Assembly (NCBI GenBank): GCA_937120475.1
Contig: CAKZJV010000007.1
Coordinates: 1,690,068 to 1,754,067, forward strand
Length of the DNA stretch: 64,000 nucleotides
Reading direction: 5' to 3'
DNA from: an uncultured Cryomorphaceae bacterium
GTDB taxonomy: Bacteria > Bacteroidota > Bacteroidia > Flavobacteriales > Schleiferiaceae
Shown piece after piece: positions 17,558-22,296 of the stretch (position 1 is the stretch's first letter; every line of letters begins with the position of its first letter). Both the position numbers and the translations under genes were made by a program. The notes beneath the pieces are model-generated. The model was not told the origin of the DNA, searched no databases, and saw only the letters and a list, made by a program, of their open reading frames with translations.

Positions 17558-19945
17558 ATGAAATTTCGTTTATGGCCAAATAAAAAACCTGAACCTCCCC
17601 GCCAACCTTCCCCTTATCAAGGGTTGGTGAAACACCTTATTTCCCAAGTATCGTCCCCCACCCAGGCTTCATCCATTATACGAGAAGCCCAGGATTTTTT
17701 GAGACTACCGGTTGACAAACAGAATGAAGAAATCGTTTGCATATACCTGGCTTTTGAGCAATACTGCTGTAACCTTGATGAAGCCCACCGATCCAGGCAC
17801 CATGATTTCCGCTCCCAGGTGCTCGGGCAATTTCCACAATTGCTGAAAAACGAATGGGGCCGCCTGCCTTTTTTTACAGAAACCGAGTCTAAGCTGCTTT
17901 TGCTATCGTGGTTTTACCAATTAATACTCACTCCTTTACTGGAAGTAGCCGGTCACCGAAAGGGCAGTAATATGGAAACTTTGTGGCAATGGTGCAGAAG
18001 CATTTGGGATGAAAACTTTGAAACCCAACTGCAAGTAAATGGTTTCCCTACCTTACCACCTGATACCGATGAAATCAATACCAAAAAGATAAGTCGCCTC
18101 ATCTTTTCAGCACTTAGCCGGCAATTCAGCATACTAAACCTTGAAAACCTGTATCATAAGGCTTATCAACGCTGTTTTAACCTTTTCAGGGATTACGAGC
18201 ATTTTCACTTCATTATTTTGCTTATCCCCTCGCAGTTCTTAAAACTGGAACATTTACGGATACTGGGGAAAACCCAGATGGAACAGGTGCTTTTGGAGAA
18301 TATTCATACGCTGGAGGAAACCAATAACCGCCTGCATTCACAAATACATGAGAACCAAAGCCTCTCTCAAAACCTGCAGGAACAGTACATGGCTTTTGAA
18401 AAGCTACTGGCCAACCCGCTGGATTGCATTATTGTGGTGGATGAAAACAACCGCATTCTCTCCTGGAATACTAAAGCCAACGAAATTTTCAACTATTCGG
18501 CCGAAGAGGTTCAGGGTAAAAAACTACAGGATATTATTATCCCCTATTCCCGCGAAAATGAAATGATTCATCATTTGCGCCATTATACCTCAAACCTGAG
18601 AAATAAGTTACTGGACAAAACCCTGAAAGTAGAGTTATGGAACGCCCAGCACCAAACCTTCCCGGCAGAAATGAACATCAAAGATTACCGGCAGGAAGGA
18701 AAATTGCGCTTCGTAATTTTCATACGAGACATTTCCGAGCGTAAGGCTTATGAGGATTCCCTGGTAGCGGCCCGTAAAGCCGCTGAAGAGGCCAACCAGT
18801 ACAAAAGCCGATTTTTTGCCAATATGAGCCATGAAATCCGCACACCGCTCAATGCCATAATCGGCTTTACGGAGCTGATGCTTAAAGATGAATTATCAAA
18901 CGAACAAGCCGAGTATCTGCGGATGATACAAAGCTCCGGGAAAAACCTCATGAGCCTGATCAACGATATTCTGGATCTCAGTAAAATAGAAGCCGGAGAG
19001 CTTCGTATCAATCCCAGCACTGAAGATTTCAGTGAACGTATCAACGAGATTATCGCCCCTTATGTGACCATGGCGGAGCAAAAAGGGCTGAAGTTTACCT
19101 TAAACTTCGAAGAGGCCTTTCCCCGCTTTATTCAAATGGACTATTACCGTTACAACCAGGTATTGGTTAACCTGCTGGGCAACGCCATTAAATTTACCGA
19201 TGAAGGAGAAATTCGCGTGCGCATCAATTACCGGTTCAACGAAAAAGGGCAATGCATAGTAAAAACAACGGTGTCCGACAGCGGTAAGGGAATACAAAAG
19301 GAAAAGCTCAAAACCATATTTCATTCTTTTCAGCAGGAGAGCCACCAAATTGAAGCTCAATTTGGCGGCACCGGCCTGGGACTAAGCATCAGCAAGGAGA
19401 TTGCCCTGTTAATGGGTGGCGATATCATAGGCAACAGTCCCAGTGTAATCTTCAGAAACAGGGGTTGCGATTTTATTTTCAGTGTAACCGTACAAGTAGA
19501 TTACCAGCACCAACCGGAAAAGCAGGTGACCCGCACCGGGGAGTCACCTCAGCTGGATCATCTGAAGGTACTGCTGGCGGAAGACAACCCCGTAAACCAG
19601 ATGCTACTTTCCCGGGTGCTGGATCGTTACAATCTTAACGTAATACTGGCTTCCAATGGTCAGGAAGCTTTGGATCTATTGAAAGAGGGGGTGTTTGACC
19701 TGGTTTTTATGGATATAAATATGCCGGAAATGGACGGATACGCCACGGCAAAAGCCATCCGCAACGATTTAAAACTCGAAATTCCTATTATAGCGGTTAG
19801 TGCCAATGTATATCCGGAGGACAAGGAAAAATCCATTGCTTCAGGTATGCAGGCGCATATTGGCAAACCCTTTAATCCCGATGAACTTATACAACTGATC
19901 CAAAAGTTGGTGGACGAGCCTAACTCACTCCCAACTGGCGGTTAA
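17558..19945 (+). CDS. Soluble hybrid histidine kinase with N-terminal unknown domain, PAS and receiver
   Basis: 795 residues from the ATG at 17558 (a TTG two codons earlier also fits). Residues 1-235 form a helical domain I do not recognise, with no signal peptide or membrane span. About 240-280 is a coiled coil; 280-395 is a PAS domain (PLDCIIVVDENNRILSWNTKA). The HisKA domain has SHEIRTPLN near 422-430 with the phospho-His. The ATPase domain has N (LLGNAIKFTDEGE), DSGKGIQ and GGTGLGLSI. The C-terminal receiver (about 665-790) has AEDN, phospho-Asp in FMDINMPEMDG near 717 and a Lys in IGKPF. All catalytic residues are intact. The stop codon lies inside engB on the other strand (26-bp tail overlap). 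Confidence 0.92.
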   Translation: MKFRLWPNKKPEPPRQPSPYQGLVKHLISQVSSPTQASSIIREAQDFLRLPVDKQNEEIVCIYLAFEQYCCNLDEAHRSRHHDFRSQVLGQFPQLLKNEWGRLPFFTETESKLLLLSWFYQLILTPLLEVAGHRKGSNMETLWQWCRSIWDENFETQLQVNGFPTLPPDTDEINTKKISRLIFSALSRQFSILNLENLYHKAYQRCFNLFRDYEHFHFIILLIPSQFLKLEHLRILGKTQMEQVLLENIHTLEETNNRLHSQIHENQSLSQNLQEQYMAFEKLLANPLDCIIVVDENNRILSWNTKANEIFNYSAEEVQGKKLQDIIIPYSRENEMIHHLRHYTSNLRNKLLDKTLKVELWNAQHQTFPAEMNIKDYRQEGKLRFVIFIRDISERKAYEDSLVAARKAAEEANQYKSRFFANMSHEIRTPLNAIIGFTELMLKDELSNEQAEYLRMIQSSGKNLMSLINDILDLSKIEAGELRINPSTEDFSERINEIIAPYVTMAEQKGLKFTLNFEEAFPRFIQMDYYRYNQVLVNLLGNAIKFTDEGEIRVRINYRFNEKGQCIVKTTVSDSGKGIQKEKLKTIFHSFQQESHQIEAQFGGTGLGLSISKEIALLMGGDIIGNSPSVIFRNRGCDFIFSVTVQVDYQHQPEKQVTRTGESPQLDHLKVLLAEDNPVNQMLLSRVLDRYNLNVILASNGQEALDLLKEGVFDLVFMDINMPEMDGYATAKAIRNDLKLEIPIIAVSANVYPEDKEKSIASGMQAHIGKPFNPDELIQLIQKLVDEPNSLPTGG

Positions 19946-20525
19946 TTTCAGCGATATAGCCCAGCACTTCCATTTTACCCGCTCCATTTTCTGCGGAGGT
20001 AGCAAAACTCACCGGTAATTCTTCCCAGCGTTCCAGCATTTTTTTGCGGTAGTGCTTTAAGTTAGCGTTGAGTTTATTCCCGTTAAGCTTATCAATTTTG
20101 GTAAACACCATACTGAAGGGCACACCCAGTTCACCCAACCATTCCATAAATTCAAGGTCTATCCGTTGCGGTTCGTGCCGCGAATCGATCAGCACAAAAA
20201 CGTTGGTCAGGTTCTCACGTTTCTCCATGTAGTCCACGATCAAAAGCTGAAACTTTTCTTTGGCTTTTTTGCTCACTTTGGCGTAACCGTAACCCGGTAA
20301 ATCCACCAAAAACCATTGATCGTTCACGTTAAAGTGATTGATGAGCTGGGTTTTACCGGGTCGTGAAGAGGTTTTGGCCAAACCCTTATGATCCATCAAC
20401 ATATTGATGAGGCTACTCTTGCCCACGTTACTGCGCCCGATAAAGGCATATTCCGGCCATTGGGTTTCCGGGCACTGACTGAGCTTCGCACTGCTCTTAT
20501 GGAATTCCGCTTTCTGGATTTTCAT
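19920..20525 (-). CDS. engB: Ribosome biogenesis GTP-binding protein EngB (YsxC/YihA)
   Basis: 201 residues from the ATG at 20525. An in-frame ATG at 20612 would add 29 residues absent from the family, and a TACCTTTG box sits between them, so the inner start is preferred. It assists 50S assembly. Motifs: YAFIGRSNVGKSSLIN (G1) near 26-40, a shifted Thr (SSRPGKTQLIN), DLPGYGYA (G3) near 78, TKID (G4) near 145 and SAENG (G5) near 175. Convergent with the hybrid kinase, sharing 26 bp at the 3' ends. The region between engB and mraZ carries GTGG-repeat arrays on both strands. Confidence 0.95.
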   Translation of the reverse strand: MKIQKAEFHKSSAKLSQCPETQWPEYAFIGRSNVGKSSLINMLMDHKGLAKTSSRPGKTQLINHFNVNDQWFLVDLPGYGYAKVSKKAKEKFQLLIVDYMEKRENLTNVFVLIDSRHEPQRIDLEFMEWLGELGVPFSMVFTKIDKLNGNKLNANLKHYRKKMLERWEELPVSFATSAENGAGKMEVLGYIAEINRQLGVS

Positions 20526-20529
20526 GCGG

Positions 20530-20537
20530 CAAAGGTA
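20530..20537 (-). promoter_or_regulatory. Candidate -7 box TACCTTTG of engB
   Basis: The minus strand reads TACCTTTG ending 4 bases before the ATG at 20525. Transcription starting about 6-7 bases downstream would begin at or beside the start codon, so the mRNA would be leaderless or nearly so. Confidence 0.45.
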
Positions 20538-20723
20538 GGCTATCAAAAAGGCTTTGCTTAAAACTCTAAATGAGAAACGTAGAATTCTAAAATTCCAACC
20601 CAAAGAGGTCATCCTGAACGCCCACTTTCCCTACGGACGGGGAGCCGAAGGGTGACCTTGAACTTTTAACCTCAACTCTTTACAACTTTGAAACCTTAAA
20701 ACTCAACCCGCCTACGGCACTCT

Positions 20724-20760
20724 CCCACTTTCCCCCACCTTTTTTACCACTCGTTTCCAC
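20724..20760 (-). promoter_or_regulatory. Second GTGG-repeat array, facing engB
   Basis: The minus strand reads GTGGA-N5-GTGGT-N7-GTGGG-N5-GTGGG (units at 20760-20756, 20750-20746, 20738-20734 and 20728-20724). Within each pair the pitch is 10 bp. This is the same unit and pitch as the array before mraZ but in the opposite direction, about 200 bp before the engB start. Confidence 0.55.
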
Positions 20761-20856
20761 TCCCCCTAATCCCGCTCTCACAAAGAAATCCGTGAACTTT
20801 TATACCAAAGCCAAAGTTTTTAGGTTATCCTTAAAGTGGTAAAAGTTATCAACAAA

Positions 20857-20881
20857 GTGGAGCATAGTGGGAAATTGTGGG
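20857..20881 (+). promoter_or_regulatory. MraZ-box-like operator, three GTGGR units at 10-bp pitch
   Basis: GTGGA at 20857-20861, GTGGG at 20867-20871 and GTGGG at 20877-20881, each separated by exactly 5 bases. E. coli MraZ binds three TGGGN repeats separated by 5 bases before its own gene, so this is the expected autoregulatory operator. It ends 10 bases before the mraZ -7 box, where a bound protein would block RNA polymerase. A further GTGGT at 20836-20840 is one base out of phase. Confidence 0.8.
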
Positions 20882-20891
20882 TCATTTTCTC

Positions 20892-20899
20892 TACTTTTG
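20892..20899 (+). promoter_or_regulatory. Candidate -7 box TACTTTTG of the mraZ-ftsZ operon
   Basis: Match to TAnnTTTG, 25 bases before the mraZ ATG. The nearest upstream TTG (20875-20877) is only 14 bases away, shorter than the usual 17-23, and it lies inside the operator. Confidence 0.55.
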
Positions 20900-20924: not shown

Positions 20925-21398
20925 ATGCTGAACCTGATTGGAGTACACGAATGTAAAATGGACGCTAAAGGGCGGGTGATGATACCATCTGCGCTGAAGA
21001 AGCAGCTATTGCCCGTACTCGATAAGGGTTTTGTGATCAAACGCAGTGTATTTCAAAAGTGCCTGGAGCTGTACCCTATGGACGAATGGGAAAAGGTGAT
21101 GGGCCGTGTAAATAAGCTGAACCGCTTTGTAAAGAAGAATAACGATTTCATAAGGATGTTTACGGCCGGTGTGAAAATGCTGGAGATGGATTCCAACGGT
21201 CGCCTCAACATCCCTAAAGACCTTATGAACTTCGGCAGCCTTAAATCGGAATTGGTGCTTTCCTCCTCCGTTGGGCTTATTGAAGTGTGGAATAAAGATG
21301 CTTACGAGGCTTCCATCAACGATCCCGAAGTGGACTTTGGTGCGTTGGCCGAAGACGTGATGGGTAGCTTAAACGACCCTACGGATGGAGTATCATAA
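20925..21398 (+). CDS. mraZ: Transcriptional regulator MraZ
   Basis: 157 residues. Two AbrB-like swapped-hairpin domains are seen as paired motifs: GVHECKMDAKGRVMIPSALK near 5-24 and MLEMDSNGRLNIPKDL near 85-101, both with the DxxGRxxIP core. It binds DNA as a ring-like oligomer and controls the division and wall cluster that it heads. The three GTGGR repeats upstream fit its known site type. Its last 14 bases overlap rsmH, which is usual for this pair and implies coupled translation. The C-terminal tail (about 20 acidic residues) is longer than in E. coli. Confidence 0.97.
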   Translation: MLNLIGVHECKMDAKGRVMIPSALKKQLLPVLDKGFVIKRSVFQKCLELYPMDEWEKVMGRVNKLNRFVKKNNDFIRMFTAGVKMLEMDSNGRLNIPKDLMNFGSLKSELVLSSSVGLIEVWNKDAYEASINDPEVDFGALAEDVMGSLNDPTDGVS

Positions 21399-22296
21399 AC
21401 CCGTTCTTTTACATCAATGTATTGACCTGCTGCAAATTAAACCCAATGGCATTTATGTAGATGCCACTTTTGGCGGAGGAGGTCACAGTCGCGAAATCCT
21501 GAAGCACCTGGATACGGGTCATCTTTATGGTTTTGACCAGGATGAGGACGCCCAGGCCAATGAGTTGGAAAATGAAAATTTTACACTCATCGCTTCCAAC
21601 TTCCGCCACCTGAAAAACAGCCTCCGCTTTAAAGGGGTCCGCCAGGTAGATGGTTTATTGGCCGACCTCGGAATATCATCTCATCAAATTGATGAAGCCA
21701 GCCGGGGGTTCAGTCTTCGCTTTGAAGGCCCTTTGGACATGCGCATGAACCGCTCCAGGCCCAAGGATGCCAAAATGGTGGTAAACACCTATCCCGAAAA
21801 GGAATTGATCCGCATATTCCGGGATTATGGAGAGTTGATCAAACCCCACCTATTGGCCCGCACTATAACCCAGGCCCGCGCAGAATCCCCCATTGAAACC
21901 ACCGAAGCACTGAAAAGCACCCTGGAGCGTTTCGCTCCGCGCAACAAACACGGGCAATTCTGGGCCAAGGTATTTCAGGCTATCCGCATGGAGGTGAACG
22001 ATGAAATGGGTGCACTTCACGACCTCCTTACCCAGGCAGCAGATATTGTAAAGCCGGGTGGCCGACTGGTGATCATCTCCTACCACTCACTGGAAGACCG
22101 GCCGGTAAAGAATTTTTTCAGGACCGGAAATTTTGAAGGTAAACCCGAAAAGGATTTTTACGGCAACCTGCTCCGCCCCCTGGAACCCATAACCCGGAAA
22201 CCCCTGGTACCGGACGCATATGAAATTGAACAAAACCCAAGAGCCCGCAGCGCTAAGCTAAGGGCCGCTGAAAAGATAGATGATGGCAACAAGTAA
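21385..22296 (+). CDS. rsmH: 16S rRNA m4C1402 methyltransferase RsmH (MraW)
   Basis: 303 residues. SAM-dependent N4-methylation of C1402 in 16S rRNA. Visible motifs: the start EYHKPVLLHQCIDLL, the SAM-binding DATFGGGGHS near 28-37, LADLGISSHQID near 92 and the catalytic-loop ISYHSLEDRPVKNFF near 232, with the family C-terminal RARSAKLRAAEK. It starts inside mraZ and ends 17 bases into the next gene. Second gene of the division operon. Confidence 0.97.
   Translation: MEYHKPVLLHQCIDLLQIKPNGIYVDATFGGGGHSREILKHLDTGHLYGFDQDEDAQANELENENFTLIASNFRHLKNSLRFKGVRQVDGLLADLGISSHQIDEASRGFSLRFEGPLDMRMNRSRPKDAKMVVNTYPEKELIRIFRDYGELIKPHLLARTITQARAESPIETTEALKSTLERFAPRNKHGQFWAKVFQAIRMEVNDEMGALHDLLTQAADIVKPGGRLVIISYHSLEDRPVKNFFRTGNFEGKPEKDFYGNLLRPLEPITRKPLVPDAYEIEQNPRARSAKLRAAEKIDDGNK

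Follow-up and report, generated by a model that had tools for sequence, protein, structure and literature searches.

A candidate inverted MraZ operator in helical phase with the mraZ promoter array of Schleiferiaceae and other Bacteroidia

In the window (the whole stretch of 64,000 nucleotides analysed), GTGG repeats on opposite strands face each other between two divergent genes, which raises the question of which gene the minus-strand repeats serve and how they might act. MraZ is a bacterial regulator of wide distribution that forms a ring-like large oligomer, and its operator in E. coli reportedly consists of TGGGN repeats with 5-base spacers; solved relatives of the protein include 1n0e, 9qlr, 9qlg and 9sx6, among others. 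The 400-bp space between the start of the divergent neighbour (20525, minus strand), which we take to be engB and to encode the YihA/YsxC GTPase, and that of mraZ (20925, plus strand) holds all the arrays, and the ORF 3' of mraZ is presumably mraW/rsmH, with further dcw-type ORFs after it. The original prediction described three plus-strand units and two minus-strand pairs, and its coordinates proved right to within about 1 base. On the minus strand, GTGG (CCAC when read on the plus strand) is found at 20725-20728, 20735-20738, 20747-20750 and 20757-20760, forming two 10-bp pairs with a 12-bp step between them (Table 1). By eye, the stretch 20600-20660 between engB and the minus array resembles a degenerate intergenic repeat (gtcatcctgaac ... 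gccgaagggtgacc), and its conservation in the sister genome is poor.

Table 1. Positions, within the window, of the features between and around engB and mraZ
Feature	Position	Strand	Remarks
engB (presumed; YihA/YsxC GTPase), divergent neighbour	19920..20525	-	ORF; start codon 20525 conserved in relatives
TACCTTTG, likely engB -7 box (promoter-like)	20530..20537	-	~190 bp from the minus array
Auxiliary inverted MraZ-type operator (candidate)	20725..20738	-	Two GTGG, 10-bp pitch; the conserved pair
Second minus-strand GTGG pair	20747..20760	-	Outer spacing 130 bp; not kept in sister genome L004
Outer GTGG unit	20836..20839	+	41 bp 5' of the last GTGG; kept in some relatives, lacking in others
DnaA-box-like 9-mer TTATCAACA	20846..20854	+	31 bp 5' of the last GTGG
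Main MraZ operator (predicted)	20857..20880	+	GTGG x3, 10-bp pitch, starts 20857/20867/20877; just 5' of the mraZ -7 box
TACTTTTG, likely mraZ promoter -7 box	20892..20899	+	Fits the TAnnTTTG consensus
mraZ	20925..21398	+	ORF; two PF02381 matches above cut-off
mraW/rsmH (presumed), next dcw gene	21385..22296	+	ORF

Regarding the plus-strand array, motif, place and conservation support reading it, as the original prediction did, as the operator that MraZ is expected to have at the mraZ/dcw promoter, like those of E. coli and Mollicutes. Direct repeats with a GTGG/TGGG core and a 10-bp pitch, the hallmark of MraZ boxes, are found upstream of mraZ, and a search of the 3.65-Mb genome for exact GTGG-N6-GTGG-N6-GTGG triples returned two occurrences, the one at mraZ and one inside a coding sequence, the latter read as an ABC-ATPase signature. 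Of 60 genomes from the order, 57 were found to have mraZ, and at least two GTGG units at a pitch of 9-13 bp precede it at 55 of these 57 loci (exceptions, L026 and L040). At the level of the class, for which a sample was made of the 30 best-scoring loci and of 60 chosen among the matches listed, about one per genus, an exact GTGG-N6-GTGG stands before mraZ at 72 of 89 loci (89 of 90 under a loose length filter, L226 being a wrong place at a contig edge). Since TACTTTTG begins 15 bp past the start of the last GTGG, the array is placed at the predicted mraZ promoter; the main sigma factor of Flavobacterium psychrophilum is described as having TAnnTTTG for its -7 box (available text of PMC9723704).

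The minus-strand units, which the original prediction treated as one array, fared differently from each other in relatives: the outer pair (20725-20738) is conserved, in the sister genome L004 too, whereas the inner one is degenerate in L004. Lack of conservation in relatives, which the original prediction had named as grounds for its refutation, was therefore not what the outer pair showed. Among 88 Schleiferiaceae-like genomes searched, 86 carry mraZ and yielded, once duplicates were merged and G081 and L043 (less than 150 bp upstream) were left aside, 82 distinct upstream regions from genera that include Owenweeksia, Phaeocystidibacter, Schleiferia and Thermaurantimonas. An exact CCAC-N6-CCAC pair lies 94-152 bp before the last plus-strand GTGG in 47 of these 82 regions (13 of 19 genera) and is absent from the other 35 (6 of 19 genera, plus one g4 genome). 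Within the genome of the window, the opposed composite CCACN6CCAC...GTGGN6GTGG was found only at mraZ among the matches listed, and the same composite read backwards gave one chance match in each of two pattern searches.

Beyond the family, a class-wide pattern search recovered the opposed composite in at least 74 of 395 genomes, own genome included, mraZ being found in at least 353 of these 395; some of the matches are due to chance, in GC-rich coding DNA, and 63 loci were retained. By a loose test, 58 of the 63 have a MraZ-like start after the array; this test leaves L319, L320, L323 and L325 unsupported and matched the wrong frame in L197 and L214, where mraZ is known from other searches; L178 was fetched via MraZ itself. 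In the class sample, the opposed pair occurs in 12 of the 72 mraZ regions with a main array, versus 1, 0 and 0 of these regions for three controls, and is absent from 60 of 72, in a sample that leans against the pair because genera already fetched via the pattern were mostly skipped. With relaxed boxes, and under a stricter length filter, it is found in 16 of 82 class regions versus 4 for the control. Within the class, the feature is therefore widespread without being general, and, the pair being absent from 35 of 82 family regions and 60 of 72 class loci, neither would be a loop. As a separate observation, genome G277, for which the class-wide mraZ search gave no mraZ among the matches listed, contains two near-perfect hairpins in which three CCAC face three GTGG units (G277:C1:2491266-2491327 and 3148275-3148336, L358).

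Regarding the letters between the GTGG units, minus pair and main array have similar spacers. In 28 family loci both are purine-rich, the correlation outside the GTGG columns is 0.59, and C never occupies any of the six positions between the two units of the minus pair, versus 4 of 168 in the main pair. Because the spacer letters are alike, the two arrays look like sites of one protein, and the minus pair would represent a second, distant site sharing the recognition sequence, as in lac-type looping.

The distance between the two arrays, in turn, takes a restricted set of values. Measured from the first CCAC to the last plus-strand GTGG, the conserved pair stands at outer spacings of only 94, 106-107, 117, 127-129, 139-141 or 152 bp within the family, the last of these in the window, and these values define a lattice with a period of about 11.4 bp; the statistic does not include the extra pairs at 130 bp in the window and at 254 bp in L062. 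The spacing is 106 bp in Schleiferia thermophila (L126/L023) and 107 bp in Phaeocystidibacter luteus (L121/L015). The 14 family genera give a best period of 11.35 bp (R=0.95, p=2.5e-4, the simulation floor, with 0 of 4000 as good), and the 25 non-family values one of 11.70 bp (R=0.74, p=2.5e-4, again the floor). Placed on the MraZ tree of the family (31 loci), the spacings require at least 8 level changes, every value lying within about 1.6 bp of the lattice, which is therefore not one inherited number. Gain or loss of 10-bp array units was considered as the origin of the steps and rejected, because the period is 11.3-11.7 bp and R for all 39 spacings, 0.54 at 10.5 bp, drops to just 0.28 at 10.0 bp.

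A blind test that took period and phase from the family was applied to the non-family spacings, which were read by eye and in some cases averaged within a genus (those of f18 and f19 to the last exact GTGG, though a degenerate unit follows); it gave V=0.72 and p=5e-6 for 25 values and p=5e-5 after collapse to 18 groups. An automated rule, passed by 55 of the 63 loci in 22 groups, gave p=3.3e-5 (simulation floor) and a best period of 11.30 bp; L195, L240, L319-L321 and L325 of the by-eye set did not pass it, and in its grouping L178 as a group of its own and L185 as 'f3' are ad hoc labels. These two single MAGs from outside the family, labelled Draconibacterium and Psychroflexus, have an on-lattice pair at 127 and 152 bp, respectively. 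A longer-range search matched in 27 of 395 genomes, many times by chance elsewhere, and provided 12 mraZ cases at 142-210 bp, L348 at 207 bp among them, which again fit the family lattice (12 values, p=0.0010; 8 families, p=0.0057); in all these statistics relatives are not independent, and collapsing them to families lessens but does not remove kinship. Toward short distances, matches were obtained in 24 of 247 genomes, and the shortest spacing to a mraZ promoter array among the matches listed was 93 bp, as expected for the smallest feasible loop. In G196 (f20), a pair has an extra GTGG pair facing it at just 65 bp.

Several spacings fall off the lattice: f35 g63 at 132-134 bp (residual +4.6), f20 g48 at 132 (+3.4), f74 at 120 (+2.7), f49 g171 at 115 (-2.3), f30 at 167 (+4.3), f17 g163 at 177 (+3.0), f30 g211 at 205 (-3.1), f65 at 228 (-2.8) and, with relaxed boxes, f68 at 182 (-3.4). 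The off-lattice pairs of f35 g63 (L212, L213, L214, L216 and L217), where the other f35 loci read stand at 127-130 bp, may reflect a changed or decayed loop geometry.

Conservation of a distance only modulo the helical turn marks a pair of sites that have to face each other, and it is against this pattern that the possible roles of the minus pair must be weighed. The original prediction had suggested that MraZ also controls engB, in which case the minus array would be a divergent operator repressing this gene. Of the 47 family loci that carry the pair, 33 do have engB within 500 bp upstream, window counted, and the pair comes to within 77 bp (L010) and 44 bp (L019) of the engB start. Such proximity is however lacking at the other 14 of the 47, which have no engB within 500 bp, and the pair hence follows mraZ, not engB; about 20 other families of the class carry it at mraZ among the matches listed, its distance to the engB start varies from 44 to 225 bp within the family whereas that to the mraZ array is quantised, and in the window it stands some 190 bp from the TACCTTTG box of engB. 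The pair was not found to accompany engB at a promoter-proximal place, so that an engB operator was rejected as its main role and is, in our opinion, very unlikely. Still harder to believe is that the minus units play no part at mraZ and are a G-rich stretch arisen by chance or brought in with a repeat, or else serve some other protein. Loss of the inner pair in the sister genome and the repeat-like aspect of the 20600-20660 flank would suit such an origin, which conflicts with the conservation of the pair, its similarity to the main motif, its exact 10-bp pitch and its helical phasing.

A more serious question is which partner the upstream array would touch, since phasing alone names none and would arise with any touched protein. 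An MraZ array acting from upstream in a helix-face-dependent manner through RNA polymerase or a DnaA-like protein, and not through MraZ-MraZ bridging, would be in keeping with the fixed position of the DnaA-like box, 31 bp from the last GTGG. Nevertheless, the phase is kept out to 185-210 bp, which suits a rigid loop between two operators, both arrays contain similar boxes and MraZ is a large oligomer, and we regard contact with polymerase or DnaA as unlikely. Bridging by MraZ, which the original prediction had mentioned as an alternative to engB control, is the reading that the comparisons favour, because the distance between the arrays appears quantised at about 11.4 bp.

We thus propose that the minus pair probably serves MraZ as an auxiliary operator, inverted, which by looping to the promoter array stabilizes autorepression of mraZ and the dcw genes. 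The comparisons show the arrays themselves, their conservation independent of engB, the motif that they share and, across families, their helical phasing; from these we infer that MraZ binds the minus pair, that MraZ contacts MraZ and that repression is the outcome. In such a mechanism, MraZ would occupy the minus pair, located upstream of the three-box main operator at the mraZ/dcw promoter and inverted with respect to it, and MraZ bound at both sites would bridge them, bending the intervening DNA into a loop of roughly 90-210 bp that would stabilize the autorepression of mraZ and of the dcw operon. As the bridge would need both sites on the right face of the helix, insertions and deletions between the arrays would be tolerated mainly when about a whole turn is added or removed, and the spacing would therefore evolve in steps of about 11.4 bp.

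Besides the lac system, the ara and gal loops are further two-site repression loops. With the lac loop (available text of PMC1762422 and PMC8501960), the present arrangement would share two sites for one oligomeric repressor, similar loop distances and a strict helical phase, the in vivo repeat of lac being 11-11.6 bp. It differs in that the repressor would be MraZ, that the sites are multi-box arrays in opposite orientation, and that the phasing is evolutionary and not experimental, dependence on helical phase being visible here in comparative data only. For repression loops of lac, fitting gave in vivo helical repeats of 11.60 and 11.08 bp (PMC1762422, Table 1), 11 bp per turn is commonly observed in bacteria according to the portion available of PMC8501960, and the period of 11.3-11.7 bp found here appears close to these published values (11.1-11.6). 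Regarding MraZ operators, that of E. coli, where MraZ has a repressor role (available text of PMC8475190), is likewise made of direct repeats of 10-bp pitch just upstream of the mraZ/dcw promoter, in contrast to the present locus, where a second, inverted and helically phased pair stands about 93-210 bp upstream. In Mollicutes, the operator consists of AAAGTG[T/G] direct repeats (Fisunov et al., 2016, cited in PMC8475190), resembling the AAAGTGG-like repeats before mraZ here, and in M. genitalium the mraZ repeats are the only such site in the chromosome; the text available from PMC8475190 describes no opposed upstream array like the one considered here. A literature search covering titles and abstract openings, with few subscription papers, found none on an upstream opposed MraZ array or on MraZ looping, and the phased, inverted auxiliary operator would be what is new with respect to the known MraZ operator. 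A second operator kept in strict helical phase across many families predicts a loop that is directly testable. If true, a major bacterial class would control its dcw genes by looping in the manner of lac, there would be a hint at the reason for using an oligomeric repressor, and the spacings would offer a rare measurement, by comparative genomics, of the DNA repeat in vivo.

Finally, a sequence resembling the DnaA box, whose consensus is of the TTATNCACA type, is found at a fixed position next to the main array. The 9-mer of the window, TTATCAACA, is one letter off this consensus, and an exact TTATCCACA is present in several g6/g15 family genomes. All the listed family loci that have the pair also have a DnaA-like 9-mer 30-32 bp 5' of the last GTGG; under the stricter length filter, TT[AT]T[CT][AC]ACA starts in this interval in 30 of 72 loci of the class, with a distance of exactly 31 bp in 25. 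Same-strand TTATCMACA pairs at most 30 bp apart were searched for and found nowhere in the genome, the 700 bp before dnaA likewise gave none, and the literature search (titles and abstract openings, few subscription papers) gave none on a DnaA box at mraZ. It is tempting, if rather speculative, to see in the Bacteroidia dcw promoter a switch in which a phased MraZ loop would be opened or locked by DnaA through its fixed box just behind the promoter array, and the spacing, shifting by whole turns during the evolution of the class, would record the in vivo helical repeat (about 11.4 bp); if true, replication initiation would be coupled to division-gene expression. The loci L223, L245, L256, L267, L279, L285, L301 and L302 (f50, f53, f65 and f68) are without the forward box and, by eye, contain TGTGGATAA or TGTGGAAAA, a reverse DnaA box, 5' of the array; as this sequence contains GTGG, it may be an MraZ unit instead.
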